Shown here: in pieces, positions 3,112 through 28,629 of the stretch | Layout: each line of letters opens with the position of its first letter | Position numbering within the stretch: position 1 is the stretch's first letter | Source: Myxococcales bacterium | GTDB taxonomy: Bacteria; Myxococcota_A; Polyangia; Polyangiales; Polyangiaceae | Assembly: GCA_020430845.1 (NCBI GenBank) | Contig: JAGQJA010000067.1 | Span: forward strand, 1-37,694 | Direction of reading: 5' to 3' | DNA length: 37,694 bases | Notes under the pieces: generated by a model | The model's input: the letters and a program-made list of their open reading frames with translations, nothing else | The model's database searches: none | What the model was told of the DNA's origin: nothing | Program-made: the position numbers and the translations under genes

Positions 3112-4725
3112 ATGCAGCCCGGAGACATCCCGCCCCACCTCGCGTCGCAGAGCCAGCTCTTGCGGCTCCGCGAGCGGGTCCAGCAGAAGTACGGTTCGTT
3201 CGGCAACCGCGAGGACACGGGGCGCGTCGACCTCGCCGCCGTGATGGCCGACACGGGCTTGCGGACGACGATCAAGATCGTCGCGGCCGTGTTCTTCGCG
3301 TCGCTCGCGGCCTCGTTCGTCGCCTCGCCCGAGTTCGAGCAGTTCCGCCTCGACGTGGCGCTCGTCGCCTTCTGGGGCCCCGTCCTCTACCTCTACGTGG
3401 TCAAGCCGCCGCTCTGGTCGAGCGCGCGCGTCTTCCTCACGCTGGCGCTCTTCATCGAGCCGTTCAGCGAGGCCATGTTCGTCACCAAGGGTGAGGGCGG
3501 CTACTGGAACACGGTGCTCTGGCCCGCGTCGGTGGCGTTCTACGGCACCATCAAGGAGTGGTCCGGGGCACCCGGCGCGTCGCTCTCGCTCTTCACGGTC
3601 GTGGCCGGCTACCTCGTGTACCGCGCCGTCGGCGCGCGCAAGAAGCCCAAAGGCTACGTCCGCCCGCCCGACTTCGCGCGCTTCCCGCTGCAGCTCTTCG
3701 CGGGGGCGATGGCCCTGTTCGTCGTCATCGGCGTCGTGCGCGGCGCGCCGATCGAGCCGGCTTTTCGGCAGACGTACCACATGATGCAAGTGCCGCTCGC
3801 GGCGCTGCTCTTCTTGCACGCGATCCGCACGCCGCACGATCTCCCCGCCATCGGCACCATCTTCGTGGTCGCCGCCGTCGCGCGCAGTCTGCTGGTCGCG
3901 TACATCTACTTCTTCATATGCGTGCCCAACGGCATCGCTCCCGAGTGGTGCACCAACCACTCCGACACGGTGCTCTTCGTCACCGCGCTGCTCATCCTGG
4001 TCGCCCACGGGCTCGAGCAGCGCAAGGGCAAGGTGATCCTCAAGTGCCTGGCCATCGGCACGGTGATCCTCGCCGGCATCGCGCTCAACAACCGCCGCCT
4101 CGCGTTCGTGAGCCTCGGCGCGGCGCCCGTGGGCATGTACCTCGCGCTCAAGCCGAGCCCGCGCAAGACCAAGGTCACGATCCTGATGACGGTGCTGTCC
4201 GTCCTGGCCGTGGCGTACGTGAGCATCGGCTCGCAGATCGACTCGCCTTCGCCCCTGCTCAAGCCCGCGCGCGCCGTCGTGTCGGTCATGGAGCAGCGCG
4301 ACTCGTCGAGCAAGTCGCGCGACATCGAGAACGAGAACCTGATCTACACCCTCAAGCAGAGCCCCCTCATCGGCACGGGCTTCGGCTTCGAGTACAAAGA
4401 GGAGAAGAACGCCGTCGACCTGGGCGTCGCCTTCAAGGACTTCAAGCTCATCGCCCACAACGGCGTTCTGTGGATCTGGTCGCTGCTCGGCGTCGTGGGC
4501 TTCACCGCGCTCTGGATCCTCTACCCGACGACAGCCACCCTCGCGGTCCGTGGCTATCGCGCGGCCAAGACCCCGCTCGAGCGGTCGGCGTCGCTCGCGT
4601 CGCTCGGCGCCGTGGTCGTGTGCATCATCCAGATCTGGGGCGACCAGGGCTTTCTGAGCTACACGACGCTCGTGACGTTCGGGGTCGCCTACGGGGTGTC
4701 GGCGCGGCTCGCCGAGCCGACCTGA
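3112..4725 (+). CDS. O-antigen ligase/polymerase (Wzy/WaaL)-like membrane protein
   Basis: A 537-residue polytopic inner-membrane protein. After a soluble N-terminus of about 55 residues come roughly ten or more hydrophobic helices, interrupted by a large hydrophilic periplasmic loop around residues 380-445. This is the layout of the Wzy_C family of polysaccharide polymerases and O-antigen ligases. The short stretch NNRRLAFVSLG and the loop ending SPLIGTGFGFEY (in the family the loop commonly carries a P-x-x-G-x-G block) support this. With a chain-length regulator, an initiating transferase and an OPX protein in the same locus, the likely role is polymerisation of lipid-linked repeat units. 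Polymerase and ligase cannot be told apart from sequence alone. Confidence 0.8.
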   Translation: MQPGDIPPHLASQSQLLRLRERVQQKYGSFGNREDTGRVDLAAVMADTGLRTTIKIVAAVFFASLAASFVASPEFEQFRLDVALVAFWGPVLYLYVVKPPLWSSARVFLTLALFIEPFSEAMFVTKGEGGYWNTVLWPASVAFYGTIKEWSGAPGASLSLFTVVAGYLVYRAVGARKKPKGYVRPPDFARFPLQLFAGAMALFVVIGVVRGAPIEPAFRQTYHMMQVPLAALLFLHAIRTPHDLPAIGTIFVVAAVARSLLVAYIYFFICVPNGIAPEWCTNHSDTVLFVTALLILVAHGLEQRKGKVILKCLAIGTVILAGIALNNRRLAFVSLGAAPVGMYLALKPSPRKTKVTILMTVLSVLAVAYVSIGSQIDSPSPLLKPARAVVSVMEQRDSSSKSRDIENENLIYTLKQSPLIGTGFGFEYKEEKNAVDLGVAFKDFKLIAHNGVLWIWSLLGVVGFTALWILYPTTATLAVRGYRAAKTPLERSASLASLGAVVVCIIQIWGDQGFLSYTTLVTFGVAYGVSARLAEPT

Positions 4726-4860: not shown

Positions 4861-4899
4861 ATGGGCTCACTCGAGTCCGGAGGCTCCTCCAGGAGATGA
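4861..4899 (+). CDS. Possible 12-codon leaderless leader ORF
   Basis: ATG 4861 begins MGSLESGGSSRR and stops at TGA 4897-4899, which overlaps the kinase ATG (4896-4898) as ATGA. It lies at leaderless distance from a TAACCT hexamer. The kinase has an AGGAG (4891-4895) directly abutting its own ATG, too close for a normal ribosome site, so coupling through the short ORF is plausible. The arrangement repeats that upstream of the kinase-like gene at 91-699. Confidence 0.3.
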   Translation: MGSLESGGSSRR

Positions 4900-6638
4900 A
4901 CGCGCAACAGGCCGAGCGCAGGGTGGGGTCCGTCATCGGGGCGAAGTGGCGCGTCGATGCCCTTTTGGGGTCGGGCTCGATGGCCGCCGTGTACGCGGTG
5001 ACGCACCGCAACGGCGCGCGCGCCGCGCTCAAGATCCTGCACCCCTCGCTGTGCACCGACCCGGCCGTGTGCGAGCGCTTCCTGGGCGAGGGCTACCTCA
5101 CCAACGCGGTCAAGCACCCCGGCATCGTGCGCGTGCTCGACGACGGCGTCACCGAGGACGGCTGCGTCTTCTTGGTGATGGACCTGCTCGAGGGCGAGAC
5201 GCTCGAGGCGCTCCGCCAGCGGCGCGACGGTCGCATCCCGCTCGTCGAGACGCTCGACCTCTCCGACAAGCTCATGGACGCGCTCGCCGCGGTGCACGCC
5301 GCGGGAATCATCCATCGCGATCTCAAGCCCCAGAACGTCGTCGTGTGCAACGACGGCGCCGTGAAGCTCCTCGACTTCGGCGTGGCGCGCGTCTTCGACC
5401 GCACGTCGCAGAGCAAGCTCTCGATGTTCGGGCTCGTCCTCGGCACGCCGTCGTTCATGTCGCCCGAGCAGGCGATGGGCTCGCGCGACAAGGTCGACAA
5501 CACGAGCGACATCTGGTCGCTCGGGGCCACGATGTTCACGTCGCTCACGGGCGAGACCGTGCACCTCGGGCCGAACGTGCAGGCCAAGCTGCTCGCGGCG
5601 GCCACGCAGAAGGCGCGCTCGATCTCGATGGTCATGCCCGATCTGCCGCCGCAGATCGCGTCGATCATCGACATGGCGCTGCGCTTCAAGAAAGAGGACC
5701 GCTGGCAGAGCGTCGACGCCATGCGGCGCGCCCTCCGCGAGGCGCGCGAGCAGCTCGGGCTCGGAAAGCCTGCGTCGCAGCGCGAGGGGCTCTTCGACAG
5801 CCCGCTCGACGACCAGACCGTCGTCGACGCCGGCGCCCCGCGCTTCAGCTCGAACACGATGGCGAGCGCGCCGCCGGCGCACGGCCCCGAGGGCACGTTC
5901 ATCGGCATGGGCTCGGGCGCGAGCGGCGAGATGTCCGCGGTCGTCGGCAACGACGGCTCCGTCCCGCCCGCGCGCAACATGACCGGGCCGCCGCCGCCAG
6001 CCCGCGCGCAGATGGCCTCGTCGCACCCCACGCCCGGCGCCGTCACGAGCTCGGTCCCGAGCCCGCGTGCGCCCATGGGCTCGTTCTCCGACGGCGCCTC
6101 GACCGACAGCGAGGGCCCGTTCGGCGCCAGCGTGTCGTCGTCGGCCGACACGAGCGACGAGCTCCGCGCGATCGGCGTGCCCCGCCGTGGCCGCACGGGG
6201 TGGATGCTCGCGCTCCTCGCCGCCGCGCTCGGGCTCGGCGCCGTCGCCTTCTTCGCCGTGCGTCGCGATCCGTCGCCGTCGGCGCGTGATCCGGGCGCGG
6301 ACACCAACGTCCCGTCGCCCTCCACGACCGCGCCCGCCCTCACGAGCGCGCCCCTGCCCGACACGACCCCGAGCGCAAGCGCGCCCGCGCCGAGCGCCTC
6401 GTCGGCGACGTCGGCCACGGCCACGGTCGCCACCGCCGAAGATCCGCCGCCGGCACCGAAGCCTGTATGGACAGGTGGGAGGTGGCCGCCGCGTCCGAAG
6501 CCTGCGCCGGACCCGCCCGCGCCGACGACCGCCGCGCCGCCGGCCACGACTGCGCCTCCGACGGCCGATCCTCCGGCCGACCCGCCCAAGCCCCCCGACC
6601 CGCCCAAGCCGGTCGACCCGTTCGGCACACCCGAGTAG
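4896..6638 (+). CDS. Membrane Ser/Thr protein kinase (Hanks type)
   Basis: A 580-residue kinase. The N-terminal catalytic domain (about residues 12-285) has the glycine loop GSGSMAAVY, the lysine in AALKIL, the catalytic loop HRDLKPQN, LLDFGVAR and the activation segment ending in GTPSFMSPEQ, so it should be active. A long Ala/Pro/Ser-rich linker follows, then one membrane helix at about residues 435-457 (MLALLAAALGLGAVAFFAV). The tail to the C-terminus is rich in Pro, Thr and Ala with no recognisable sensor fold. The kinase faces the cytoplasm and the Pro-rich tail the periplasm. It sits between the polymerase-like and Wzz-like genes, so control of polysaccharide assembly is a reasonable guess. 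The start follows an AGGAG and overlaps a possible 12-codon leader ORF. Confidence 0.92.
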   Translation: MNAQQAERRVGSVIGAKWRVDALLGSGSMAAVYAVTHRNGARAALKILHPSLCTDPAVCERFLGEGYLTNAVKHPGIVRVLDDGVTEDGCVFLVMDLLEGETLEALRQRRDGRIPLVETLDLSDKLMDALAAVHAAGIIHRDLKPQNVVVCNDGAVKLLDFGVARVFDRTSQSKLSMFGLVLGTPSFMSPEQAMGSRDKVDNTSDIWSLGATMFTSLTGETVHLGPNVQAKLLAAATQKARSISMVMPDLPPQIASIIDMALRFKKEDRWQSVDAMRRALREAREQLGLGKPASQREGLFDSPLDDQTVVDAGAPRFSSNTMASAPPAHGPEGTFIGMGSGASGEMSAVVGNDGSVPPARNMTGPPPPARAQMASSHPTPGAVTSSVPSPRAPMGSFSDGASTDSEGPFGASVSSSADTSDELRAIGVPRRGRTGWMLALLAAALGLGAVAFFAVRRDPSPSARDPGADTNVPSPSTTAPALTSAPLPDTTPSASAPAPSASSATSATATVATAEDPPPAPKPVWTGGRWPPRPKPAPDPPAPTTAAPPATTAPPTADPPADPPKPPDPPKPVDPFGTPE

Positions 6639-6710: not shown

Positions 6711-8252
6711 ATGGGCAAGATCGAAGAAGCGACCCTCTTCCGTCCGGGACAAGCGGGCGGAGGCGGAGGCAAAGGACAGGGCGGCTTCGGCGGAGGCGGC
6801 GGAGGCGGCGGAGGCGGCGGCGGGCGTGGGCCCTCGGCCGACGACGACGACGGGCCGCAAATCTCGCTGCGCGAGCGCGTGGGCGAGGCGAGCCGGTCGG
6901 CGCGAAGGCGCAAGGGCCTGTCGCTCGTGGTGCTCATGCTCTGCGGCGCGCTCACCGTGCTCGGCGCGATCTTCGCGCCACGCAGCTACGAGGTCGAGGC
7001 GCGCTTGCTCGTGTCGCCGCAGCAGCAGGCCTCGCAGCAGCAGGTCTACCAGTCCCCCGAAGAGCTCCGCGCGCAGCAGAGCGAGTACGTCGAGCAGATC
7101 TTCGCCCAGGACAACCTGGTCAACATCATCAAGCAGACCAACCTCGTCGAGCGCTGGGACGAGATGCGCCAGCCGCACCGTCGCCTCATCGACAAGCTCA
7201 ATCGCAAGCTCGGCAAGCCCGCGCCCACCGACGAGCAGAAGTTCGAGGCGCTGCTCGGCCTGCTGCGTGGCCGCATGAAGGTGTTCACCGAGGCGCGCAC
7301 CGTGACCATCAAGCTCGAGTGGAGCGAGCCGGTCGCCGCCAAGGACGTCGTCGCGGCCGCCGTCACCAACTTCAAAGAGGCGCGTTTCCAGAGCGAAATC
7401 GCGATCATCCCGGCGCGCGTGAAGGTGCTCGAGGCGAGCATGTCGACCGCCCACAGCGAGCTCGAGAACGCCGCCGACGAGCTCAATCGTCAGATCAAGC
7501 TCAAGGACCCGAAGAAGGCGGGCGTGTCGGTCGCGCCGCTGCCCTTCAAGCCCAAGACCGATCCGGCCGACATCGAGGCCGATCCCGCGCTCGCCGCGCA
7601 GCTCGAGCAGACGCGCAACGATCTCGCGCAGGCCAAGGCCGCGCGCGTGCAGAAGGTCGCCGAGCTGAACAACGAGCTGACGCAGATGCAGCAGACGCTC
7701 GCGCCAGGGCACCCGTCGGTGATCGCCCTCAAGCAGACGATCGCCGCGACCGACAAGGACACGCCGCAGATCATCGCGCTCAAGGAGAAGGAGCGCCGCC
7801 TCGTCGAGGAGATCGCGGCCAAGAAGAAGGCCAAGGCCGCGGCGGCCGCGGCGGCGGCCCCCAAACCGGGTGTGCCCCGTCCGGCGGTCGCCCCCGCCCC
7901 CGCGCCCACGGTGGCCGTCGGCGGCTCGAAGTCGCTGCAGGACGCCGAGGTCCAGTTCAACGCCGCGACCAAGAAGTACGCCGAGCTCGTCACCGCCCTC
8001 GACGCCCTCAAGCTCGAGATGGAGATGGCCAAGACCGGCTTCGAGAAGAAGTACAAGGTCACGCAGCCCGCCGAGGTGCCGGCCGGTCCCAAGCGGCCCG
8101 TCGCCGTCATCGCCGTGCTCATCGGCATCATGGCCACCTTCATGGCGATCCTCGCCGTGGCGTCGCTCGCAGACCGCTTCAGCGGGCTCTTCTTCGAGCC
8201 ACGCGACGTGCGCGACAAGCTCGGGATCCCGGTCTACGCGACCTTCTCCTGA
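6711..8252 (+). CDS. Wzz/Wzc-type chain-length protein without kinase domain
   Basis: A 513-residue inner-membrane co-polymerase. A Gly-rich cytoplasmic head (residues 13-40, including a 12-Gly run) leads to helix 1 (about 70-89, SLVVLMLCGALTVLGAIF). A long charged, helical periplasmic region (100-455) follows, with coiled-coil-like stretches and an Ala/Lys run near 375. Helix 2 spans about 462-486 (VAVIAVLIGIMATFMAILAV). The short tail ends LGIPVYATFS, which is where the tyrosine kinase domain begins in fused Wzc proteins; here the protein stops. The kinase-like partner is probably the separate P-loop-less gene at 91-699. Such proteins set chain length in Wzx/Wzy pathways and contact the OPX exporter. 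Confidence 0.85.
   Translation: MGKIEEATLFRPGQAGGGGGKGQGGFGGGGGGGGGGGGRGPSADDDDGPQISLRERVGEASRSARRRKGLSLVVLMLCGALTVLGAIFAPRSYEVEARLLVSPQQQASQQQVYQSPEELRAQQSEYVEQIFAQDNLVNIIKQTNLVERWDEMRQPHRRLIDKLNRKLGKPAPTDEQKFEALLGLLRGRMKVFTEARTVTIKLEWSEPVAAKDVVAAAVTNFKEARFQSEIAIIPARVKVLEASMSTAHSELENAADELNRQIKLKDPKKAGVSVAPLPFKPKTDPADIEADPALAAQLEQTRNDLAQAKAARVQKVAELNNELTQMQQTLAPGHPSVIALKQTIAATDKDTPQIIALKEKERRLVEEIAAKKKAKAAAAAAAAPKPGVPRPAVAPAPAPTVAVGGSKSLQDAEVQFNAATKKYAELVTALDALKLEMEMAKTGFEKKYKVTQPAEVPAGPKRPVAVIAVLIGIMATFMAILAVASLADRFSGLFFEPRDVRDKLGIPVYATFS
6789..6815 (+). repeat. Three perfect 9-bp GGCGGAGGC repeats in coding sequence
   Basis: The Gly-rich head of the Wzz-like protein is encoded by three exact GGCGGAGGC units followed by a degenerate unit. 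Copy changes would keep the frame and alter only the length of the poly-Gly linker. Confidence 0.7.
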
Positions 8253-9713: not shown

Positions 9714-10568
9714 GTGCAAATGGTCCCTGGGGCCAAGATTGGGGCGTACACGCTCGAGCGGCCGCTGGGGTCCGGAGCGTTCGGCGTAGTGTGGCTCGCA
9801 AGCCGCACCGACACCGGCGATCGCGTGGCGATCAAGGTGCTTCACCCCCAAGCGGCCGTATCCCACGAGATCGTCGAGAGATTCCGCCGCGAGGCGTGGG
9901 TCCTCTCGCAGCTCCAGTCTCCCCACATCGCCCGCATGTTCGAGTTCTTGACCGAGGCGCCCTTCGGGATGGCGCTCGTCATGGAGTACATCGAGGGCGA
10001 GCTGCTGAGCGAGGTGTTCAAGCGCGCGCGGTTCGGCGTCGAGGACGCCTGCAGCCTCGGCATCGGCATCTCGAGCGGCCTCGCCACGATGCAGTCGGCG
10101 GGCATCATCCACCGCGACATCAAGCCCGAGAACATCATCCTGCGGCCCAACCCCAACGGTTGGCACGCGGTGATCTTCGACTTCAACCTGAGCCGCATCA
10201 AGAACCCGACGGGGAAGATGAGCAGCCTGACCTCGATGCACGCGGCCATCGGCACAGTGCCCTACATGGCGCCCGAGCAGCTCCTCGACGCGCGCCGCGT
10301 CAACGAGTCGTCCGACGTGTACTCCGCCGGGACGATCCTCTGGCGCGCCGTGGCCGGCCAGCTCCCCTTCGACGCGCGCGAGAGCCTGCGCGAGAAGTTG
10401 CAGCAAGAGGCCAAGCCTCTGCCCACCGGGCGCACCGATCCGCTCGCCGTCGGGTTCGCGGAGATCGTCGGCAAGGCGCTCCGCAGGCGGCCCGCGGAGC
10501 GGTACGCCAAGGCGCAGGACATGCTGGACGACCTCACCAACCTGGTGACGAGGGGTAGCCACGGATGA
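9714..10568 (+). CDS. Small soluble Ser/Thr kinase with DFN instead of DFG
   Basis: A 284-residue protein that is almost only a kinase domain, with no membrane helix. It has the glycine loop GSGAFGVVW, lysine in VAIKVL, catalytic loop HRDIKPEN (His133, Asp135, Lys137) and the activation segment end GTVPYMAPEQ. The DFG motif reads DFN (Asp156-Phe157-Asn158): the metal-binding Asp is kept but the Gly is lost, so activity is plausible with altered activation-loop flexibility. GTG 9714 lies 6 bases after a TAGCAT hexamer; ATG 9720 is an in-frame alternative. The stop overlaps the ATG of the GT-C/acyltransferase gene (ATGA at 10565), so kinase and membrane enzyme are made together and probably work together. 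Confidence 0.88.
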   Translation: MQMVPGAKIGAYTLERPLGSGAFGVVWLASRTDTGDRVAIKVLHPQAAVSHEIVERFRREAWVLSQLQSPHIARMFEFLTEAPFGMALVMEYIEGELLSEVFKRARFGVEDACSLGIGISSGLATMQSAGIIHRDIKPENIILRPNPNGWHAVIFDFNLSRIKNPTGKMSSLTSMHAAIGTVPYMAPEQLLDARRVNESSDVYSAGTILWRAVAGQLPFDARESLREKLQQEAKPLPTGRTDPLAVGFAEIVGKALRRRPAERYAKAQDMLDDLTNLVTRGSHG

Positions 10569-15042: not shown

Positions 15043-16743
15043 ATGAGCGACCTCGAGAAGCGCTTCGGCGAAGGACTGTGGGTGAGCGTCGTGATGGCGA
15101 CGTACAACCGCGCGGAGCTGCTGCGCCGCTTGCTCCGGCAGCTCGACGAGCAGACGCTCGACGCGTCGCGCTTCGAGGTGGTCGCGGTCGACGACGGGTC
15201 CAAGGAGGACACGAAGCAGGCGCTCTCCGACCTCGAGGTGGGCTACGCGCTCACGATCGCGCGCCAGGACAACGCCGGGGCGGCCGCCGCACGTCAGCGC
15301 GGCGTCGAGCTCTCGCGCGGGAAGATCATCGTCATCATCGACGATGACATGCAGATCGCGCCCACGTTCCTCGAACGTCACCTCGCCCGGCACGAGGACG
15401 ATCAGACGGTGGTGCTGGGGCGCCTGCGCCCCGACGCGAACCTGTCGGAGATGCCTCTCTTCGAGCGCTTCTACGCGCGCACCATGGCGGCGGTGGGCGA
15501 CGCGTTCGCCAGCGGCGCGGAGCAGGTGCGCGGACACAATGTATATACAGGCAATGTCTCGATGCCGCGCGCGCTCTTCGTGAAGGCGGGGGGCTTCGAC
15601 GCGCGCTTTCGTCAGCTCGAGGACGAGGAGCTGGGCGTGCGCCTCGAGAAGGCCGGCGCGCGTTTCGCGTTCGCCGACGACGCGGTCACGGTGCACGGCT
15701 CCGACTGGACCAGCATGCAGAAGTGGATGGAGCGCGCGTACAAGGACGGGCTCTACCAGACCAAGCTCGCGCACAAACACCCGGACGTGCCCGAGTCGAG
15801 CCCGTGGCGGCACATCCCGAACATCAACCCCGTCTCGCGTCCGTTCTTGGCGTTCAGCCTGGCGGCGCCGCGCGCGGCGAGCGTGTTGGCGGGCGCGGCC
15901 ATCCGCTCGGCGTCGGTGCTCGACAAGGTGGGGCTCGAGCCCGTCGCCATCGCGGGCGCCACGCTCGTGTACGGCATCCAATACTACCGCGGCGTGCGCG
16001 AAGAGACCGGCGGCGTGCGGCAGGCCGCCAAGGAGTACCGCGAGTTCAAGCGCGGCGTGTCGCTCTTGCGCGCCGGGGCCCGCGGCGACGAGGCGGCGTG
16101 GCGCGAGCTCGTCGGCGGCATCCGCGAGGACCACCGGATGATCCGGTTCTACGCCGACAAATACGACGACCGCGTCGACGCGGGGGAGCGCAAGCTCGAC
16201 GCGGGGCCTCCTTTGCACGGCTTCGCCGGTGCGTCGCTCGGCGGCGCGCTCTCGCTCACGGGCGACGCGGTCAAGAAGATCGGCTTCCAGCTGATGATCG
16301 CCTACCGGATCATGCGCTTCTTCCGGAGCGCGGGCCTCGGCCTCGCGGCGCAGTTCATGTCGCGCACCATGCGCCACGCGTTTGCCAGCGACGTGCACTG
16401 GGACGCCGAGTTCGAGCCGGGCGTGGTCATCGTGCACGGCTTCGGCCTGGCCATCAGCTACGCGGCCAAGGTCTCGCACGGCTGCATCCTCTTCCAGAAC
16501 GTCACCCTCGGGTACGGGCCCGACCCCGACACCAAGGAGGGCGGCGCCCCTCTGCTCGAGCGGAACGTGCACGTGGGCATCGGGGCGACGCTTTTCGGTC
16601 CGATCGTGGTGGGCGAGGCCACCAAGATCATGGCTGGGTGCGTTCTCAACCGCTCGGTGCCCGCCCGGTCGATCGTCGAGTGCCCCGCGCCCGCCGTGGG
16701 CGTCCGCGCCCGCCCGGGCCCCCGCGTGGCTGGCGGGGGCTGA
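15043..16743 (+). CDS. GT2 glycosyltransferase fused to a serine-acetyltransferase-like domain
   Basis: A 566-residue bifunctional protein. Residues about 12-230 form a family 2 GT-A domain: VSVVMATYNR, VVAVDDGS, the metal-binding IIDDDMQ at about residue 100, and the LEDEELGVR block of the acceptor/catalytic region. A middle segment (230-430) has hydrophobic stretches that may contact the membrane. The C-terminal part (about 440-555) is a left-handed beta-helix of serine-acetyltransferase type: HGFGLAISYAAKVSHG, QNVTLGYG, NVHVGIGATLFGPIVVG, then NRSVPARSIVECPAP. It probably adds a sugar and acetylates it or its carrier. ATG follows a GGCAGGG ribosome site 7 bases after the ATP-grasp stop. 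Codons AAT GTA TAT ACA (15538-15549) are a rare-codon island in an otherwise GC-ending gene. Confidence 0.87.
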   Translation: MSDLEKRFGEGLWVSVVMATYNRAELLRRLLRQLDEQTLDASRFEVVAVDDGSKEDTKQALSDLEVGYALTIARQDNAGAAAARQRGVELSRGKIIVIIDDDMQIAPTFLERHLARHEDDQTVVLGRLRPDANLSEMPLFERFYARTMAAVGDAFASGAEQVRGHNVYTGNVSMPRALFVKAGGFDARFRQLEDEELGVRLEKAGARFAFADDAVTVHGSDWTSMQKWMERAYKDGLYQTKLAHKHPDVPESSPWRHIPNINPVSRPFLAFSLAAPRAASVLAGAAIRSASVLDKVGLEPVAIAGATLVYGIQYYRGVREETGGVRQAAKEYREFKRGVSLLRAGARGDEAAWRELVGGIREDHRMIRFYADKYDDRVDAGERKLDAGPPLHGFAGASLGGALSLTGDAVKKIGFQLMIAYRIMRFFRSAGLGLAAQFMSRTMRHAFASDVHWDAEFEPGVVIVHGFGLAISYAAKVSHGCILFQNVTLGYGPDPDTKEGGAPLLERNVHVGIGATLFGPIVVGEATKIMAGCVLNRSVPARSIVECPAPAVGVRARPGPRVAGGG

Positions 16744-16815: not shown

Positions 16816-17409
16816 ATGAGACCGTGGCCCTTGCTCGCGCTTTCGCTGTTCGCCGCCACCTCGATGGGGTGTGCCTCCACCGGCCCGTTCGTGTGGGTCG
16901 ACGCGCTCCCTCCGCAGGCCGCGAACGGCAGCGCCGACCTCGTGATCGCCGACGGAGACCAGGTCGTCGTCAAGGTCTTCAAGCAAGAAGACCTGGGCGC
17001 GACCGAACGCGTCCGGGCGGACGGCAAGATCGCCCTGCCGGTCATCGGCGAGGTCGTCGCCCGCGGCAAGAAGCCCGCGCAGCTCGCCGCGGAGCTGGCC
17101 GATCGGCTCAAGGCCGTCGTCGTCGCGCCCTCGGTGACCGTCTCGATCGTGCAGGGCAACGAGCTCAAGGTCGCCGTCGTCGGCGAGGTGCGCCAGGGCG
17201 GCGTCTTCCAGCTCGAGCCGGGCTCCAACGTCTTGCACGCGCTCGCCGCGGCCGGCGGGCTGAACGACTACGCCGACAACGAGAAGATCTTCGTCGTGCG
17301 CCGCTCGCTCCCGCAGCGCGTCCGGTTCCGTTTCCAGGACCTGCGCTCGGCCGAGCCCAAGAACGTGGGCTTCTTGCTCCAGCCCAACGACGTCATCGTC
17401 GTCGAGTGA
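16816..17409 (+). CDS. Short polysaccharide export (OPX/Wza-like) lipoprotein
   Basis: A 197-residue lipoprotein (signal MRPWPLLALSLFAATSMGC, Cys19). The polysaccharide-export domain covers about residues 35-115 (VIADGDQVVVKVFKQEDL, RVRADGKIALPVIGEV, APSVTVSIVQG) and one SLBB domain about 118-195 (KVAVVGEVRQGGVFQL, NVLHALAAAGGL, LQPNDVIVVE). The protein ends where SLBB ends, so it lacks the C-terminal amphipathic helix that crosses the outer membrane in E. coli Wza. It therefore belongs to the short OPX type that needs a separate barrel; the protein at 8336-9634 is the candidate. It would bridge the periplasm between the Wzz-like protein and the outer membrane. Confidence 0.9.
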   Translation: MRPWPLLALSLFAATSMGCASTGPFVWVDALPPQAANGSADLVIADGDQVVVKVFKQEDLGATERVRADGKIALPVIGEVVARGKKPAQLAAELADRLKAVVVAPSVTVSIVQGNELKVAVVGEVRQGGVFQLEPGSNVLHALAAAGGLNDYADNEKIFVVRRSLPQRVRFRFQDLRSAEPKNVGFLLQPNDVIVVE

Positions 17410-18733: not shown

Positions 18734-19306
18734 ATGGGGCTATTCAGACGTGCGTTCGACGACGCGTTTCAGCTGGCCCGGGCGCTCCGCCGCAAGGAGC
18801 CTGACGCCGAGCCCACGATGAAAGACGCGCTCCGCGCGGCGCTCAGCCAGGACGGATACAAGGTCCTGCTCATGAGCCGTATCCGCGAGGCAGCGCGCCG
18901 TCGGCACATCCCCGGCGTGAACCACGCGCTGCGCCTCGCGACGACGGTGCTCTACGGGATCGAGATCGGCAACGACATCGAGCTCGGCGAGGGCATCGAC
19001 TTCACCCACACGCTCGGCACGGTCATCGGCGGCACGTCGAAGGTGGGCTCCCGCGTGAAGTTCTTGGGCAACAACACGATCGGGACCGCCAAGGACAACG
19101 GCTGTCCGATCATCGAGGACGACGTCGTCATCGGCTGCGGCGCCCGCGTGCTCGGGCCCATCCGCATCGGCGCCCGCTCGTTCATCGGCGCCAACGCCGT
19201 GGTGCTCGACGACGTGCCCCCCGACAGCGTGGTCAGCGGCATCCCTGCGAGAGCACACAAGCGGAGAGACCGCGACGGCGAAGCAGAGCAGGACCGCAAG
19301 GGTTGA
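18734..19306 (+). CDS. Serine-acetyltransferase-like hexapeptide-repeat acetyltransferase
   Basis: A 190-residue protein of the left-handed beta-helix acyltransferase family. After a helical N-terminus (to about residue 60), hexapeptide turns follow: GIEIGNDIELGEGIDFTH, GTVIGGTSKVGS, PIIEDDVVIGCGARVLGP, IRIGARSFIGANAVVLDDV, and the closing SGIPARAHKRR. The His in DFTHTLG occupies the position of the catalytic His in serine acetyltransferases. CysE is longer; short forms like this often acetylate sugars in polysaccharide loci (WcaB/NeuD-like), which fits here. The last 74 bases overlap the 3' end of the convergent deacetylase gene. Confidence 0.87.
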   Translation: MGLFRRAFDDAFQLARALRRKEPDAEPTMKDALRAALSQDGYKVLLMSRIREAARRRHIPGVNHALRLATTVLYGIEIGNDIELGEGIDFTHTLGTVIGGTSKVGSRVKFLGNNTIGTAKDNGCPIIEDDVVIGCGARVLGPIRIGARSFIGANAVVLDDVPPDSVVSGIPARAHKRRDRDGEAEQDRKG

Positions 19307-20267
19307 CGTGCTTGGTGTTGAACGGCACGTAGTCCCACGACAGCGGTCGCGATTTGGTCGCGCACGGGTCTGAGGGCGGCGTCAGCGTCGTGCCGAACGT
19401 GCCCGCCTCGGGCACGGTGACGGGGGCGAGGTCGAGCTCGTCGACGCGCACGAACTTGAAGCCCTCGGCCTTGAGGATGGGCACGATGCGCTTGACCATG
19501 TCGACCGTACGATCGTTCGCCCCGCCCGGCGGACCATCGTGCATCAGCACCACGCCGCGCCGCTTGGAGCGGATCTCCACGAGGTAGAGGTCGGAGCACT
19601 CCTCGAGGGTGCGCTGCCCGTTCCCGGCCGCGTCCCAGCAGTCCCAATCGGCCGCCGTGGTGGGCGTGAGCGCGTCGCCCATCTCCCAGTAGACCGGTCC
19701 GAAGTACTTGTTCATCGACGAGTCGCGCAGGGCCTTGTGCACGCTCGCGTCCCACCGACCGAACGGCGGCCTGAAGAGCGGCCGGGCGCCGGGCTGGAAC
19801 TGGTTGATGATGCGGTCGGTCGCGGCCACCTCGTCGACGATCGCGGTCGCGCCCTTCTCGGTGAAGAGCACGTCGAGCCCCGCGTGTGTCTGCGTGTGGT
19901 TGGCGAGCAGGTGCCCGTCGCTCACGATGCCGCGCACGACGGTCTCGCGGCCCTCGACGTTGCCCCCGTTGATGAAGAAGGCCGAGGGCGCGGCCTGGTC
20001 CCTCAGGTACGCGGACAGCTCGGCGGTGCGGTCGCCCGGTCCGTCGTCGAACGTGAGCGCGATCGTCTGGTCGGGGAGCTGGCTGCTGTACTGCCGCTCG
20101 AGGCTGATGCCGACGACGAGATCGCACAGCGGGTCCTTGGCGACAGGGCGTTCCTCTTCGCACGCGGCGACGGCCGACGCGACCAGCGCGCAGACCGCGG
20201 CGCCCAGCGCGACCCTGCGCGCGCGGCCTGCCGTGCTCGCGAGCTCTCTCCACACACTCCCACCCAC
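19233..20267 (-). CDS. NodB-type polysaccharide deacetylase, lipoprotein
   Basis: A 344-residue protein when started at GTG 20267, which has GGAGG ten bases upstream; GTG 20291 is in frame but lies only 2 bases after the candidate -10, so it would be upstream of the transcript. The signal peptide ends in a lipobox (LVASAVAAC). The NodB domain shows TFDDGPGD (catalytic Asp and metal Asp), NHTQTH (metal His pair) and RPPFGRWD. These metal-dependent enzymes remove N-acetyl groups from amino sugars in polymers or peptidoglycan. It is convergent with, and overlaps by 74 bases, an acetyltransferase gene. It lies 70 bases downstream of the initiating transferase and has its own promoter. Confidence 0.9.
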   Translation of the reverse strand: MGGSVWRELASTAGRARRVALGAAVCALVASAVAACEEERPVAKDPLCDLVVGISLERQYSSQLPDQTIALTFDDGPGDRTAELSAYLRDQAAPSAFFINGGNVEGRETVVRGIVSDGHLLANHTQTHAGLDVLFTEKGATAIVDEVAATDRIINQFQPGARPLFRPPFGRWDASVHKALRDSSMNKYFGPVYWEMGDALTPTTAADWDCWDAAGNGQRTLEECSDLYLVEIRSKRRGVVLMHDGPPGGANDRTVDMVKRIVPILKAEGFKFVRVDELDLAPVTVPEAGTFGTTLTPPSDPCATKSRPLSWDYVPFNTKHVNPCGPALLRRRGLSACVLSQGCR

Positions 20268-20293
20268 CGTATGCGCACCTCCGCGTTCCACTC

Positions 20294-20337: not shown

Positions 20338-22968
20338 CTACATCCCGGTGCCCTTGATGACGACGCCGAAGGTCTTGGCGAGGATGTGGATGTCGAGCCA
20401 CGGCGACCAGTTGCGCACGTAGTAGACGTCGATCTGGCAGCGCTGCGCGAACGACGTCGCGTTGCGATCGCTCACCTGCCACATGCCCGTCATGCCCGGC
20501 GTGGCGCGCAAGATGATCTTCTCCTGGCCGCTCATCTCGGCCAGCTCGCGCTCGAGGTACGGGCGCGGGCCCACGAGGCTCATGTCCCCCTTGACGACGT
20601 TGATGAGCTGCGGGAACTCGTCGAGGCTGAACTTGCGGAGGATGCGGCCGACGCGGGTGACGCGCGGGTCCTTCTTGAGCTTGTGGTAGATCTCGTACTC
20701 GGCCTTGAGCGCGGGATCGTTCTCGAGCAGGCTCTTGAGGCGCTCTTCGCCGTCGCCGTGCATGCTGCGGAACTTGTACGCGTCGAAGTGCTCGCCGTCG
20801 CGGCCCATGCGCTTCTGCGTGTAGAAGATGGGCCCGCGCGAATCGAGCTTGATGAGGAGCGCGATCAGCACGAGGAACGGCAGCACGAAGAAGATGCCGA
20901 TGAGCGTGAGGGTCGAGTCCATCACGCGCTTGGCGAGGCGGGGGCCGGGCAGGAGGAGCTGCTGGCGGACCTCGACCGCGAGCACGCCGCCGAGGTTCTT
21001 GGCCGGGACGCCGAGCGTCGCGAAGCCGAAGAGGTCGGGCACGAGCAAGAGGTGCGAGAACTTGCCGCCGACGCGCTCGACGATGCCGAGCAGGCGATGC
21101 GAGTCGACGCCCGGCATGGCGACGACCGCGTACGGGATCTTGAGGCGCTTGGCGAGCACCGGCGCGAGCGACAGGTCACCGACGACGGGCACGCCCTCGA
21201 CCTCGGCGAACTTGCCGCGCGGGAACCACGTCGCCTCTTGCGCGGGCTTGGACTTGGGCGCCCGGACGCTCTCGGGGCCGAGGAAGTCGTCGGCGTCGTC
21301 CGAGAGCGCGAGCTCGGAGTGGAACGACGTGGGCGGTAGCGGGATGCGGGCGGAGCTGCGCGCGCCGCTGCGGCTGCTCGGAGGGTCGTCGTCGCCGAAG
21401 ATGTCGTCGGAGAGCGCGCGGCGCTGCGACTCGCTGAGGAAGTGCGCGGCCGAGACGTTGACCGAGTAGACGTCCATCACCTCGTTGGTGAAGCTCGCGC
21501 GCAGCGTCCCGTGCTTGTTCGGGTCGTCGTCGAGCAGCATGACGGGCTTCATGCCGCTCTTGGGCTGCGCCTTGAGCATGCGCACCACCAGGCGCCCCGT
21601 CTTGGCCGCGCCGAGCACGCACACGGGGATGCCCCACCACGGCTTGGTGCACAGCTTTCCGCGCACGACGCCGCGTATCACCGGCACGAGGAAGAGCGTC
21701 GCGGCCCACCACACGAGGCGGACGAAGACGCCCCACTTGACGATCGGCAGATCGCCGAGCGTGGACAGGATCGACGCGCCGAAGTGCACGAGCGACACGC
21801 CGAAGACGATGTCGCGGATCTCGTCGGGCGTGCTCTTGGCCATCGGCGAGAAGAGCTCGAGGCCCAGGAACACGAGCATGCACATGAGGACCGACGGGCC
21901 CACGACGAGCCACGCGCTCCAGTCGATCTCCTGCAGGCGCACGAAGTGCACGGTCGTCGCGAGCGCCGCCGCGAGCGAGAGCGAGAAGAGGTCGGTCATG
22001 ACCAGCGTGAGCGACGTCCACACCGGGCGCGTGAGCACGCGCAGGCCGGCGACCTCTTTGTTCTCACGCGCGGCGACAGAGATGTCCTCGTGGCCGCGCT
22101 TGGAGCGTTGCTTGAGCTGATCGATGAGCGCCTTGGCGATCTGCTCCTCGGTGCACGCGCCGAGGCGAACGAGGATGCGCCCGATCTGACCGCCTTGCTC
22201 CTCTTGGAGCGCGATGGCCTTGTCGACCATCACCTGCGATACCGCGCCGTTGCGGAGCAGGATCTCGCAGAGCATGCTGCCGCCCGCGCCCTTGACGTTG
22301 CCGAGGGACGAGCTGGGGGGCACGTCGTCCTTGGGCTCGCGGATGATGGGGGGCGCGGCGCCGAGCACGGCGCGGATCGGGCCGGGCGTCGGAGGGCGCG
22401 AGAGCTCGATGTCGAGGCGAGGGGTGGCGGGCATTCCCGCCGCCGGCGTGATGCGCCGCGGGATGATGGGGCCGATGCCTCCGCCGACGGCTGACGGCTT
22501 GACGCTCTGCGCGGGCGTGCCGGCGTTGGGCGTGAGGCGCCGGGGCATGATGCCTCCGCCGCCGCCCATGGCGAGCGGGTTGACGCCGCTCGTCTGCGTC
22601 TCGGTGAGCGACCTCGGGATGTTGATCTCGATCTTCTCGGGCGGCGTGCTGCGCGGGCCCATGGCCGGAGGGGGAGGGGTCTCGATCTTCGACGACGAAG
22701 AGGCGCGCACCTCGATCCGGTCTGGCTCTCCTTTGGGGGAGGCGGAGCTCTCGGTGACCGGTCCGGCCTCGGGCGGAGCGAAGGGGCTGCGCCCCGACAC
22801 GGGGGTCGAGATCTTGGCGCTGGAGGACGGCTGCGCCGGCGGAGGGGAGGCGTCGGCGCTCGCCTCCGGGACGGGCGACGTCACCGTCGGGCGTCCGCCG
22901 TCGGCGTCGTCTTTCACGGCCGTGGCCGTGTCGGTGTCGTCGGGGCCACCCCGCTCCGCGCTGCTCAC
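20338..22968 (-). CDS. Initiating sugar-phosphate transferase (WbaP/ExoY type) with MshEN-like domain
   Basis: An 876-residue protein from GTG 22968. Residues 1-230 are disordered, Pro/Ser/Gly-rich. Residues 232-284 hold two 24-residue motifs with a 5-residue spacer, matching the MshEN cyclic-di-GMP domain (motif [13 protein letters not shown]...ALQ, motif [14 protein letters not shown]...IDQ). Membrane helices follow at about 315-430, then a CoA_binding_3-like Rossmann part (449-510 and 588-670) split by an acidic low-complexity insert (516-586). The C-terminal bacterial sugar transferase domain (680-876) has [45 protein letters not shown] and [13 protein letters not shown]. It should transfer a sugar-1-phosphate to undecaprenyl phosphate, the first step of repeat-unit synthesis. 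A perfect TATAAT lies 7 bases before the GTG. The MshEN assignment is by motif only; the leading Arg of each motif is replaced (Met, Gln). Confidence 0.92.
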
Positions 22969-22975
22969 CGCCCGG

Positions 22976-22981
22976 ATTATA
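22976..22981 (-). promoter_or_regulatory. Candidate -10 (TATAAT, consensus), leaderless spacing
   Basis: A perfect TATAAT on the minus strand ends 7 bases before the GTG at 22968, so the message of the initiating transferase should start at or next to its start codon. The -35 zone shows no TTGACA. Confidence 0.55.
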
Positions 22982-26478: not shown

Positions 26479-28629
26479 GTGAACGCGGACCCGTTCGGGC
26501 TGAGTGGCCAGGTCCTCGATGGACAGTTCCGCGTCGACAAGCTGATCGGCGAGGGCGGGTTCAGCGTGGTCTACAAGGGCCACCACCTCGGCCTCGACGA
26601 GCCCATCGCGCTCAAGTGCCTCAAGCTGCCGTCGTCGCTCGGCACCGCGCTCGTCGAGACGTTCGTGCAGCGCTTCCGCGACGAGAGCCGGCTGCTCTAC
26701 CGTCTGTCGCAGGGCAACCTCCACATCGTCCGGTCCATCGCGAGCGGGATGGCGACCGCCAGCCTCACGGGCGCGCTCGTGCCCTACATGGTGCTCGAGT
26801 GGCTCGAGGGCCGCTCGGTGGCGCAGGACTTCACGGTACGCCGCACGCTCGGCCAGCAAGGGCGCGAGCTGTCCGAGATCATCCGGCTCTTCGGCACCGC
26901 CGCCGACGCGCTCGCGTACGCGCACTCGCAGGGCGTCATCCACCGCGACCTCAACCCCGGCAACCTCTTCTTCACGACGACGTCGACGGGACCCAAGATG
27001 AAGGTCCTCGACTTCGGCGTCGCGAAGATCATGCACGACTCGACGCTCGCGATCGGCCCGCGCGCGCAGACGCTGGGCGCGATCCGCATCTTCGCGCCCG
27101 CCTACGGCGCGCCGGAGCAGTTCGACGATCGCGTCGGCCCCATCGGCACGTGGACGGACGTCTACGGCTTCACGCTCGTCCTCCTCGAGGCGCTGACGGA
27201 CCGCACGGTCAACGACGCCGAGCACATCGGTGAGTTCGCCAACCTCGCGCGCGACACGTCGAAGCGACCGACGCCGCGCGCGCTCGGCGTCGCGGTCTCG
27301 GACGCCGTCGAGGCCGTCTTCGCCAAGGCGCTCGCGGTCGACCCCACGCAGCGATGGCAGAACGTCGGCGAGCTCTGGGCGGCGCTCGTCGAGGCGAGCG
27401 CCAAGAACGCGTCGCCGGCCGCGACCTCGCTCACGCCCAAGAAGGACAGCGGTCTCTTCAGCACGGCCGTGATGGATCCCATCGCGCACGCGCGCGCGGC
27501 GGGGCTCGCCGACCCGCGCCCGGCAGCACCGGAGGCCGCGCCCAACACCCAGAGGCTCGGCACGCCGCTGCTGCAGACGTTCGCGATGGCCGAGCGCCCG
27601 CCCATGCCCGCTGCCGGCCGTCCCCCGTCGAGCCCGGCCCTCGCAGGCCCCGCGCCCGCGCGTGAGCCGTCGTTCGTGGGCCCTCCGCCCGCGACGCCGC
27701 GCGAGCCGTCGTTCGTCGGGCCTCCGCCCGCACCGCCGCGTGAGCCGTCGTTCGTGGGCCCTCCGCCCGCGACGCCGCGTGAGCCGTCGTTCGTGGGCCC
27801 TCCGCCCGCGACGCCGCGCGAGCCGTTCGCCCGCCAGAGCGCCCTCCCTCCGAGCGCGTTGCCTCCGAGCGCGCTGCCGCCGAGCGCCCTCGCCCCGGCG
27901 CAGGGCGCGAACGGAAATGTGCAAGATGCACGCATGTCGATCGCGTCGCACGTCTACGCGCCCGCGCCGCACGACGCGTCACCGCCGGAGATCCCCAAGT
28001 CGCGCCTCCCGCTCGTCGTCGCGGCCGTCGGCGGCAGCATCCTCGCGCTCGTGGTCGTCGTCGCCGTGGTCATCCTCCTGCGGAGCCCGGCCAAGGTCCA
28101 AGGTGGCCAGCTCCCGACCGCATCTGTGAGCGGCGTCTCGTCGACCGCACCTCCGCCCGAGAGCGCGGCGCCGCCCGTCGAACAGCCCGCTGTCGCCGTC
28201 GAGGACGCGTCGGTCCCGGAGGCCGTCGAGGACGCGTCCGTCGTCGAGGCCGCCGCGCCCGCCGAGCCATCGCCGGAGCCGGCGCCCCGCCCCGCGGGAG
28301 ACCCCGCGCCCGCGCCCTGGACACCGCCGCCGCCCAAATCCGCCGACCCGCCGCTCGACCCCGACGCGTTCGACGAGGCCGCGGCCCGCGCGGCGCTCCG
28401 CAACGCCAACGGCGTGCTGGCGTTCTGCAAACGCGGCGGCACCTCCGGACCCGGCTACGCGACGGTCACGTTCGCGCCGAGCGGCGCGGTGACGTCGGTG
28501 GTCATCGCGCAGCCGTACGCGGGCACGCCCGAGGGCGCGTGCGTCGAAGGCCAGTTCAAGCGCGTCTCGACGAAGAAGTTCGTGGGCGCGCCCAAGTCTC
28601 TGACCCACGCGTTCTCCGTGCCCAAGTGA
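26479..28629 (+). CDS. Membrane Ser/Thr kinase with Pro-rich repeats and HRDLN catalytic loop
   Basis: A 716-residue protein from GTG 26479. The kinase domain (about residues 14-300) has GEGGFSVVYKG, lysine in IALKCLKL and VLDFGVAK, but the catalytic loop reads HRDLNPGN (His155 to Asn162): the usual Lys after HRDL is Asn159. Catalysis may be reduced or altered. Residues about 396-447 are four 13-residue repeats EPSFVGPPPA(T/P)PR, then three ALPPS units. One membrane helix at about 509-533 (VVAAVGGSILALVVVVAVVILL) is followed by an Ala/Pro/Glu-rich stretch and a C-terminal domain (625-716) with ANGVLAFCKRGG, GYATVTFAPSGAVTSVVI and FKRVSTKKFVGAP. That tail resembles the TonB-C-like ending of AgmX-type myxobacterial proteins; in this topology it would be periplasmic and could sense or bind envelope partners. 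Confidence 0.9.
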   Translation: MNADPFGLSGQVLDGQFRVDKLIGEGGFSVVYKGHHLGLDEPIALKCLKLPSSLGTALVETFVQRFRDESRLLYRLSQGNLHIVRSIASGMATASLTGALVPYMVLEWLEGRSVAQDFTVRRTLGQQGRELSEIIRLFGTAADALAYAHSQGVIHRDLNPGNLFFTTTSTGPKMKVLDFGVAKIMHDSTLAIGPRAQTLGAIRIFAPAYGAPEQFDDRVGPIGTWTDVYGFTLVLLEALTDRTVNDAEHIGEFANLARDTSKRPTPRALGVAVSDAVEAVFAKALAVDPTQRWQNVGELWAALVEASAKNASPAATSLTPKKDSGLFSTAVMDPIAHARAAGLADPRPAAPEAAPNTQRLGTPLLQTFAMAERPPMPAAGRPPSSPALAGPAPAREPSFVGPPPATPREPSFVGPPPAPPREPSFVGPPPATPREPSFVGPPPATPREPFARQSALPPSALPPSALPPSALAPAQGANGNVQDARMSIASHVYAPAPHDASPPEIPKSRLPLVVAAVGGSILALVVVVAVVILLRSPAKVQGGQLPTASVSGVSSTAPPPESAAPPVEQPAVAVEDASVPEAVEDASVVEAAAPAEPSPEPAPRPAGDPAPAPWTPPPPKSADPPLDPDAFDEAAARAALRNANGVLAFCKRGGTSGPGYATVTFAPSGAVTSVVIAQPYAGTPEGACVEGQFKRVSTKKFVGAPKSLTHAFSVPK
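27664..27819 (+). repeat. Four 39-bp coding repeats (EPSFVGPPPATPR)
   Basis: Four in-frame 39-base units in the juxtamembrane linker of the kinase. Units 3 and 4 are identical except for the last base; unit 2 has a Thr-to-Pro change. They suggest recent expansion by slippage or unequal exchange. Confidence 0.85.

Follow-up and report, generated by a model that had tools for sequence, protein, structure and literature searches.

An MshEN_N-type domain ahead of a WbaP-type initiating transferase in myxobacteria: a candidate cyclic-di-GMP input to exopolysaccharide synthesis

Direct control by cyclic-di-GMP (c-di-GMP) is well established for synthase-dependent polysaccharides. The locus described here, from a soil myxobacterium of the Polyangiaceae, raises the question of whether a receptor for this messenger can also be built into the enzyme that starts each repeat unit of a Wzx/Wzy-type polysaccharide. 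Published accounts call the post-translational control of Wzx/Wzy pathways incompletely understood; that a signalling protein can control a large monotopic phosphoglycosyl transferase (monoPGT) allosterically was reported, as a new mode, only in 2025 (PMC12802240). An initial annotation of the window, by which we mean the whole stretch of 37,694 nucleotides analysed, proposed such a receptor, of the MshEN type, at positions 22117-22275. These positions on the minus strand are exactly residues 232-284 of an open reading frame of 876 residues, and we examined the identity of this segment, its enzyme, its distribution and its probable ligand.

The transferase and its locus

The 876-residue reading frame has a GC3 of 0.95 and the codon-position pattern of a real gene. 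Its product scored 431.7 bits against TIGR03022 (WbaP; curated cut-off 403), a model that 16 of 16 family members matched when each was scanned singly, and it also exceeded the cut-off of TIGR03025 (EPS_sugtrans). A full Bac_transf domain occupies the C-terminal end, and the Ser, Leu, Asp and Glu of its catalytic S-L-D-E motif are invariant in all 16 sequences. All parts of a large monoPGT are present, namely four predicted membrane helices, the DUF and a catalytic domain with its Asp-Glu pair, though the PF13727 match over the DUF (residues 584-644, E 5.1e-5, 23.8 bits) fell slightly below the cut-off of 25. The membrane helices of the AF2 model (101-131, 136-155, 166-190 and 194-225 in model numbering) had pLDDT values mostly of 80-94. 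TIGR03022 and the AF2 model thus agree with the initial annotation that the host is a WbaP-type initiating transferase with the domain ahead of its membrane helices. Since the catalytic domain is PF02397 and not a family 2 processive glycosyltransferase, the protein is not an NfrB-type synthase.

Table 1. Features of the polysaccharide locus and of the transferase, in window coordinates
Feature	Position	Strand	Evidence
O-antigen ligase/polymerase-like protein (Wzy_C)	3112..4725	+	PF04932 2.2e-10
Wzz-like chain-length determinant	6711..8252	+	PF02706 6.8e-5, 23.5 bits, just below cut-off 25.5
Family 2 glycosyltransferase	15043..16743	+	PF00535 1.4e-25
Outer-membrane polysaccharide export (OPX) protein	16816..17409	+	PF02563 1.5e-18, SLBB
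Polysaccharide deacetylase, directly downstream of the transferase	19233..20291	-	PF01522 2.7e-23
WbaP-type large monotopic phosphoglycosyl transferase with N-terminal MshEN_N	20338..22968	-	TIGR03022, TIGR03025, GC3
Low-complexity, probably disordered N-terminal arm, residues 1-225	22294..22968	-	Mean identity 0.24 with relatives (MshEN part: 0.66)
MshEN_N-type domain, residues 232-284	22117..22275	-	NF053729, PDB profile search, AF2, Foldseek
Motif I, residues 232-255	22204..22275	-	Sequence, column counts
Cys234 codon, position of MshE Gly11	22267..22269	-	Column counts
Spacer (EEQGG), residues 256-260	22189..22203	-	E, E, G, G invariant in family
Motif II, residues 261-284	22117..22188	-	Gly263, Gly270 and Gln284 invariant; Gln261 invariant, replaces Arg
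Linker with short helix (D-x-S-x-A-A-R) between the domain and membrane helix 1, residues 285-314	22027..22116	-	Conservation, AF2
Four predicted membrane helices, residues about 315-439	21652..22026	-	AF2
CoA_binding_3-like (DUF) domain, as in large monoPGTs, split by a variable loop, residues about 446-644	21037..21633	-	PF13727 below cut-off, TIGR03022
Catalytic Bac_transf domain with S-L-D-E motif	20353..20931	-	PF02397 6.3e-64

The genes around the transferase belong to a polysaccharide locus (Table 1), which also has plus-strand genes for acyltransferase, ATP-grasp-like and hexapeptide-transferase proteins. A Wzx flippase was not identified in the window, and it is the Wzy_C, Wzz-like and OPX genes that point to a Wzx/Wzy-type pathway. 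This neighbourhood is partly conserved among relatives, often with SHMT on one side and hexapeptide, SGL, OPX and GT2 genes on the other. We also detected three genes for eukaryotic-type protein kinases (4896-6638, 9714-10568 and 26479-28629), two of which lie within the polysaccharide cluster on either side of the Wzz-like gene.

The N-terminal arm of the protein contains two P-R-R-x-T-P-x-x-G-x-P peptides, and repeated peptides like P-(R)R-x-T-P-x-x-G-x-P were found in the disordered arms of 7 of the 16 members. Most close relatives share a conserved IRIPQG-x-x-LG stretch N-terminal to the domain; this stretch and the arm peptides are possible sites for a Ser/Thr kinase or for docking. Upstream of the GTG start codon at 22968 lies a TATAAT on the minus strand (22976-22981), and TATAAT in the window or TATACT in relatives stands 6-12 nt 5' of the start codon (relatives L001, L002, L004-L007, L009, L010, L013 and L018). 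Six relatives have a TGGAAG box followed at promoter-like spacing by CGTC-TATACT or a similar element. These elements resemble a conserved putative promoter, which would produce a nearly leaderless mRNA.

An MshEN_N domain, probably fused once

Residues 232-284 are a genuine MshEN_N homologue. The segment consists of a 24-residue motif I (232-255), the spacer EEQGG (256-260) and a 24-residue motif II (261-284), the 24-5-24 tandem that had been described from the letters alone, and these 53 residues align without a gap across 16 sequences. The pattern proposed for the motifs held in its layout, but its Leu at the second position is Ile in motif II. Residues 233-284 matched NCBIfam NF053729 (MshE-related c-di-GMP-binding domain) over nearly the full length of the model, scoring 43.3 bits (cut-off 38; E 2.3e-11), and when scanned one by one all 16 family members matched this model. 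A profile built from the 16 domains and compared with the PDB found PilF (2.9e-21, in several domains), PilB and MshE (5.1e-6).

The predicted structure agrees with this assignment. An AF2 model of 75 residues had a mean pLDDT of 84.5, with all four helices confident, and its best Foldseek match was c-di-GMP-bound MshE (5htl; 0.9 Å over 54 columns, probability 1.00), alongside c-di-GMP-bound PilF GSPII-B (8pdk; 0.8 Å over 52 columns, probability 1.00); apo PilF chains ranked lower, at 1.6-1.7 Å. VIA-align gave Z scores of 9.0-9.4 to 5htl and 8pdk over 63-65 residues, against a background in which unrelated fumarases reach Z 6, and its larger rmsd of 3.1-4.2 Å is probably due to inclusion of the C-terminal tail.

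The domain is not a complete MshEN. After residue 284 there is only a short linker before the membrane helices, so that the MshEN_C alpha/beta subdomain is absent and the four-helix MshEN_N subdomain stands without the two-subdomain fold. The initial annotation was right about the family and named more of the fold than is there, and two of the checks it had proposed had divided outcomes: the profile search succeeded with NF053729 while a Pfam scan of residues 232-284 gave no significant match, PF05157 (MshEN) included, and the structure comparison matched c-di-GMP-bound MshE closely, with the C-terminal subdomain lacking. The Pfam result is explained by the model itself, since PF05157 (90 positions) covers, in MshEN proteins of the same genome, the sequence after the tandem motifs, which is absent here. 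Data on MshE and PilF indicate that the ligand is held by the MshEN_N part (PMC11731258, PMC5013675), and deletion of MshEN_C from MshE slightly raised affinity (PMC11731258), so MshEN_C appears dispensable for the ligand.

The initial annotation had suggested looking for the same fusion in other Polyangia, where we did find it. A contig scan recovered 15 myxobacterial relatives (L001-L014 and L018, from Labilithrix, Polyangiaceae and unclassified Myxococcales), all 15 with the domain in the same reading frame ahead of the membrane helices, and a genome search added a fused protein from another genus of the same family (G055). Two further genomes of the window's genus (G061 and G111) appear to be the species of L006 and L004, with the same percentages, and were counted once, giving 17 distinct fused sequences, the window included, from separate assemblies. 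In a tree of 93 catalytic domains these 17 formed one clade (support 100/99) that requires one state change. Scans of the class and the order placed the fusion in no more than two genera, both of the family to which the window belongs: a few other proteins of the class matched the domain profile weakly, none of those that were read being a transferase, and no other genome of the order gave a comparable full-length match. When Myxococcota were scanned with both models, no other contig had both among the stronger matches listed. The genome's sole other PF02397 protein (contig C71) has no MshEN-type domain, nor do ten other unusually long Myxococcota transferases, which have the usual domains or WecG. 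The single well-supported clade, with no fusion beyond it in the class and order scans or among the phylum matches listed, looks like the product of a single event in one lineage, retained since.

Mean identity within the family was 0.80 in the catalytic part, 0.66 in the MshEN domain, 0.58 in the membrane region and 0.24 in the N-terminal arm. Among the long transferases (L086-L095), several have N-terminal extensions of a few hundred residues in which no Pfam domain was found, and two others have a WecG transferase domain at the N-terminus. Outside the transferases, the closest matches to the MshEN-type domain in the class are mostly N-termini of T2SSE/PilB-like ATPases (L107-L111, which have the T2SSE signature stretch) and not DUF4388 proteins. 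The window's own genome has 13 matches to NF053729, 7 of them above the cut-off, and among those inspected are several DUF4388 proteins, a receiver-TPR protein, a secretion ATPase and a kinase-like protein that also contains PilZ. One of these (L099, contig C524) combines two types of c-di-GMP receptor, MshEN and PilZ, around a kinase-like domain. The same genome has 14 GGDEF matches, so c-di-GMP signalling is very probably present in the cell.

The ligand site and competing explanations

We compared the ligand-site residues in 16 sequences (the window and 15 relatives) with the consensus of Wang 2016. The hydrophobic cluster and the Gln at position 24 of both motifs are as in the consensus: positions 2, 17 and 21 are hydrophobic in both motifs, except for one Cys at position 17 of motif I, position 2 is Leu or Ile in all 16, and Gln255 and Gln284 are invariant, as are Gly263 and Gly270 (positions 3 and 10 of motif II). 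The consensus Arg (or Lys/Leu) that opens each motif is not kept; here these residues are Met232 and Gln261, as the initial annotation had read them. Motif I opens with Leu, Phe or Met in 13/16, Arg in 1/16 and Glu in 2/16, and Gln261, at the position of Arg38, is invariant. The consensus Gly at position 3 is present in motif II and replaced in motif I by Cys234, at the position of MshE Gly11, a Gly that normally contacts the base; at this position the family has Cys in 12/16, Gly in 3/16 (L008, L010 and L011) and Ala in 1/16 (L009).

The loss of Arg, which had been raised as a threat to binding, carries little weight for Met232. With Lys and Leu instead of Arg, PilF GSPII-B still binds c-di-GMP, at about 6 nM, and in the view of its authors a more hydrophobic first residue predicts tight binding (PMC11731258); Met232 should therefore be no obstacle. 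For Gln at the second Arg position we found no precedent. Cys234, which had been overlooked, is a more serious change than the loss of Arg, given that ligand-induced stabilisation of MshE was lost in G11L and G40I (PMC5013675). Cys is much smaller than the replacements that abolish binding, and it is mainly for this position that we regard binding of c-di-GMP as evenly balanced between yes and no. The consensus Gly and Arg are not all present and binding is only predicted, so the domain is not to be filed as a canonical c-di-GMP receptor; c-di-GMP would still be the likeliest ligand of an MshEN_N module.

A rather unlikely but substantial alternative is that nucleotide binding has been lost and that the transferase uses the domain for dimerisation or for docking to other proteins, a role that the N-termini of some GspE/PilB ATPases have, such as those of XpsE or of PilB bound to PilZ. 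VIA-align also matched the N-terminal domains of XpsE and PilB-PilZ (2d28 and 7lkm), which have the same fold, and the replacement of the motif I Gly by Cys together with the loss of both Arg would fit a domain that has stopped binding. Moreover, the spacer (E-E-x-G-G) and Arg264 hardly vary in this family, although the spacer has been described as non-conserved in MshEN; conservation above that described for MshEN hints at a contact beyond the ligand and may reflect one with the rest of the enzyme. XpsE is known not to bind and has many changes, G11V among them (PMC5013675), but it lost many contacts at once, including both Gly and Gln61, whereas Gln255, Gly263 and Gln284 are invariant here and three relatives keep the motif I Gly. 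A different cyclic dinucleotide such as 3',3'-cGAMP, reported from Myxococcus xanthus (PMC8844925), could also occupy the site; the changed first residues and the Gly-to-Cys replacement would allow it, and MshE binds cGAMP weakly (PMC5013675). We consider this improbable, as no specific feature points to cGAMP and motif II retains the Gly that contacts the Hoogsteen edge of guanine.

Two further explanations concern the origin of the segment. It might be a stray piece of the DUF4388 (PATAN-like) family with another role, given its weak similarity to that family (E 0.027-0.087, 13-15 bits against a cut-off of 25) and the scores of DUF4388 proteins of the same genome on NF053729 (L100-L103), which suggest that DUF4388 itself contains an MshEN-like helical part. 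The family profile matched the MshEN of ATPases at about 1e-13 to 1e-14 and the genome's own DUF4388 proteins only at 1.7e-8 to 1.1, and the flanking parts of DUF4388 are missing, all of which disfavours this origin and makes it very unlikely. Helical bundles match one another, and as a matter of general caution we considered a helical repeat arisen by chance in a GC-rich protein and a chimera made during assembly; the score on a curated model (E 2.3e-11) and the recurrence of the fusion in 16 other sequences, taken from separate assemblies, refute both in practice and leave them a negligible probability.

A possible switch at the first committed step, and known systems

Returning to the regulatory reading, we think it likely that the domain is a regulatory input to this transferase. 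The more specific proposal, to which we give about as much credence as doubt, is that this WbaP-type large monoPGT initiates synthesis in a Wzx/Wzy-type exopolysaccharide pathway, that it has a cytoplasmic MshEN_N receptor ahead of its four-helix bundle, and that c-di-GMP switches the first step. In this proposal, c-di-GMP from the cell's diguanylate cyclases would sit across both motifs, with its guanines stacked on the Leu/Ile/Val clusters, its ribose-phosphate held by Gln255 and Gln284 and one base covered by Met232. Binding would reorient the four-helix module, and this movement would pass through the short conserved linker to the membrane bundle and the dimer, so that transfer of sugar-1-phosphate to undecaprenyl phosphate would be switched at the first committed step. 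With four membrane helices and the domain placed before helix 1, and by analogy with the topology of WbaP (PMC10942596), sensor and active site would both lie on the cytoplasmic side. Activation is the more likely sign of the effect, judging by NfrB (PMC8669469) and EpsZ-EpsW (PMC12802240).

For the coupling route, we infer a ligand-driven change in the dimer or bundle as the most economical scheme, because WbaP is active as a dimer (PMC10942596), a shift of EpsZ towards the dimer is the proposed means of its activation by EpsW (PMC12802240), and c-di-GMP unwinds a helical turn and reorients the subdomains in PilF GSPII-B (PMC11731258). The linker (residues 285-315) has a mean identity of 0.60 with invariant Ser, Ala, Ala and Arg columns, as expected if it transmits a change; its helix corresponds to residues 82-88 of the AF2 model, a low-confidence part. 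The full-length AF2 model had a pLDDT of 50, which leaves the route between the domains without structural support. A switch within one protein, in which c-di-GMP or another cyclic dinucleotide binds the initiating transferase and gates the shared undecaprenyl-phosphate pool through an Arg-free, Cys-bearing MshEN_N variant coupled to the bundle without MshEN_C, is offered tentatively, at a little short of an even chance.

The lineage-wide retention of the fusion suggests that a signal may switch production of the sugar coat at its very first step. If this is true, a sensor in the same chain would be a simple answer to when scarce undecaprenyl phosphate is committed to exopolysaccharide. The fusion would also test how much drift of the MshEN motif (no Arg, Gly to Cys) is compatible with binding. 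MshEN is known in fusions to many outputs, a glycosyltransferase included (PMC5013675, PMC8669469), and fusions of receiver domains to small monoPGTs have been mentioned (PMC12802240); in the openly available literature we found no description of a fusion of MshEN to a phosphoglycosyl transferase.

The closest known domains are those of MshE (Vibrio cholerae, 5HTL) and PilF GSPII-B (Thermus, 8PDK), which share the 24-5-24 tandem, the four-helix fold, both Gln and the motif II Gly with the domain described here. PilF likewise lacks the Arg, and a GRILVRxG stretch is common to PilF and this protein. In contrast, the MshE and PilF domains are fused to ATPases and are followed by a C-terminal alpha/beta subdomain, whereas the transferase has no such subdomain and has Cys for the motif I Gly and Gln for the motif II Arg. 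The same stretch weakly matches the N-terminus of the model for the chain-length tyrosine kinase EpsG (TIGR03029; 14 bits, far below the cut-off), and a second kind of polysaccharide protein may thus contain an MshEN-like module, though EpsG is a kinase and not a transferase.

Among polysaccharide enzymes, Salmonella WbaP (8T53, PMC10942596) shares the four-helix bundle, the DUF, the catalytic domain and TIGR03022, but it has no MshEN domain, and the control known for it is through UMP bound at the DUF. NfrB of E. coli (GT2-MshEN, PMC8669469) likewise combines a membrane sugar-polymerising enzyme and MshEN in one chain, and c-di-GMP is needed for its function. NfrB is a processive family 2 synthase with a C-terminal MshEN, whereas here a monotopic transferase that starts a lipid-linked repeat has the domain at its N-terminus. 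EpsZ-EpsW of Myxococcus xanthus (PMC12802240) is likewise a myxobacterial large monoPGT for which control of the first step through a signalling domain has been proposed. There the response regulator, EpsW, is a protein of its own, while in the protein described here the sensor belongs to another family and is covalently part of the enzyme.
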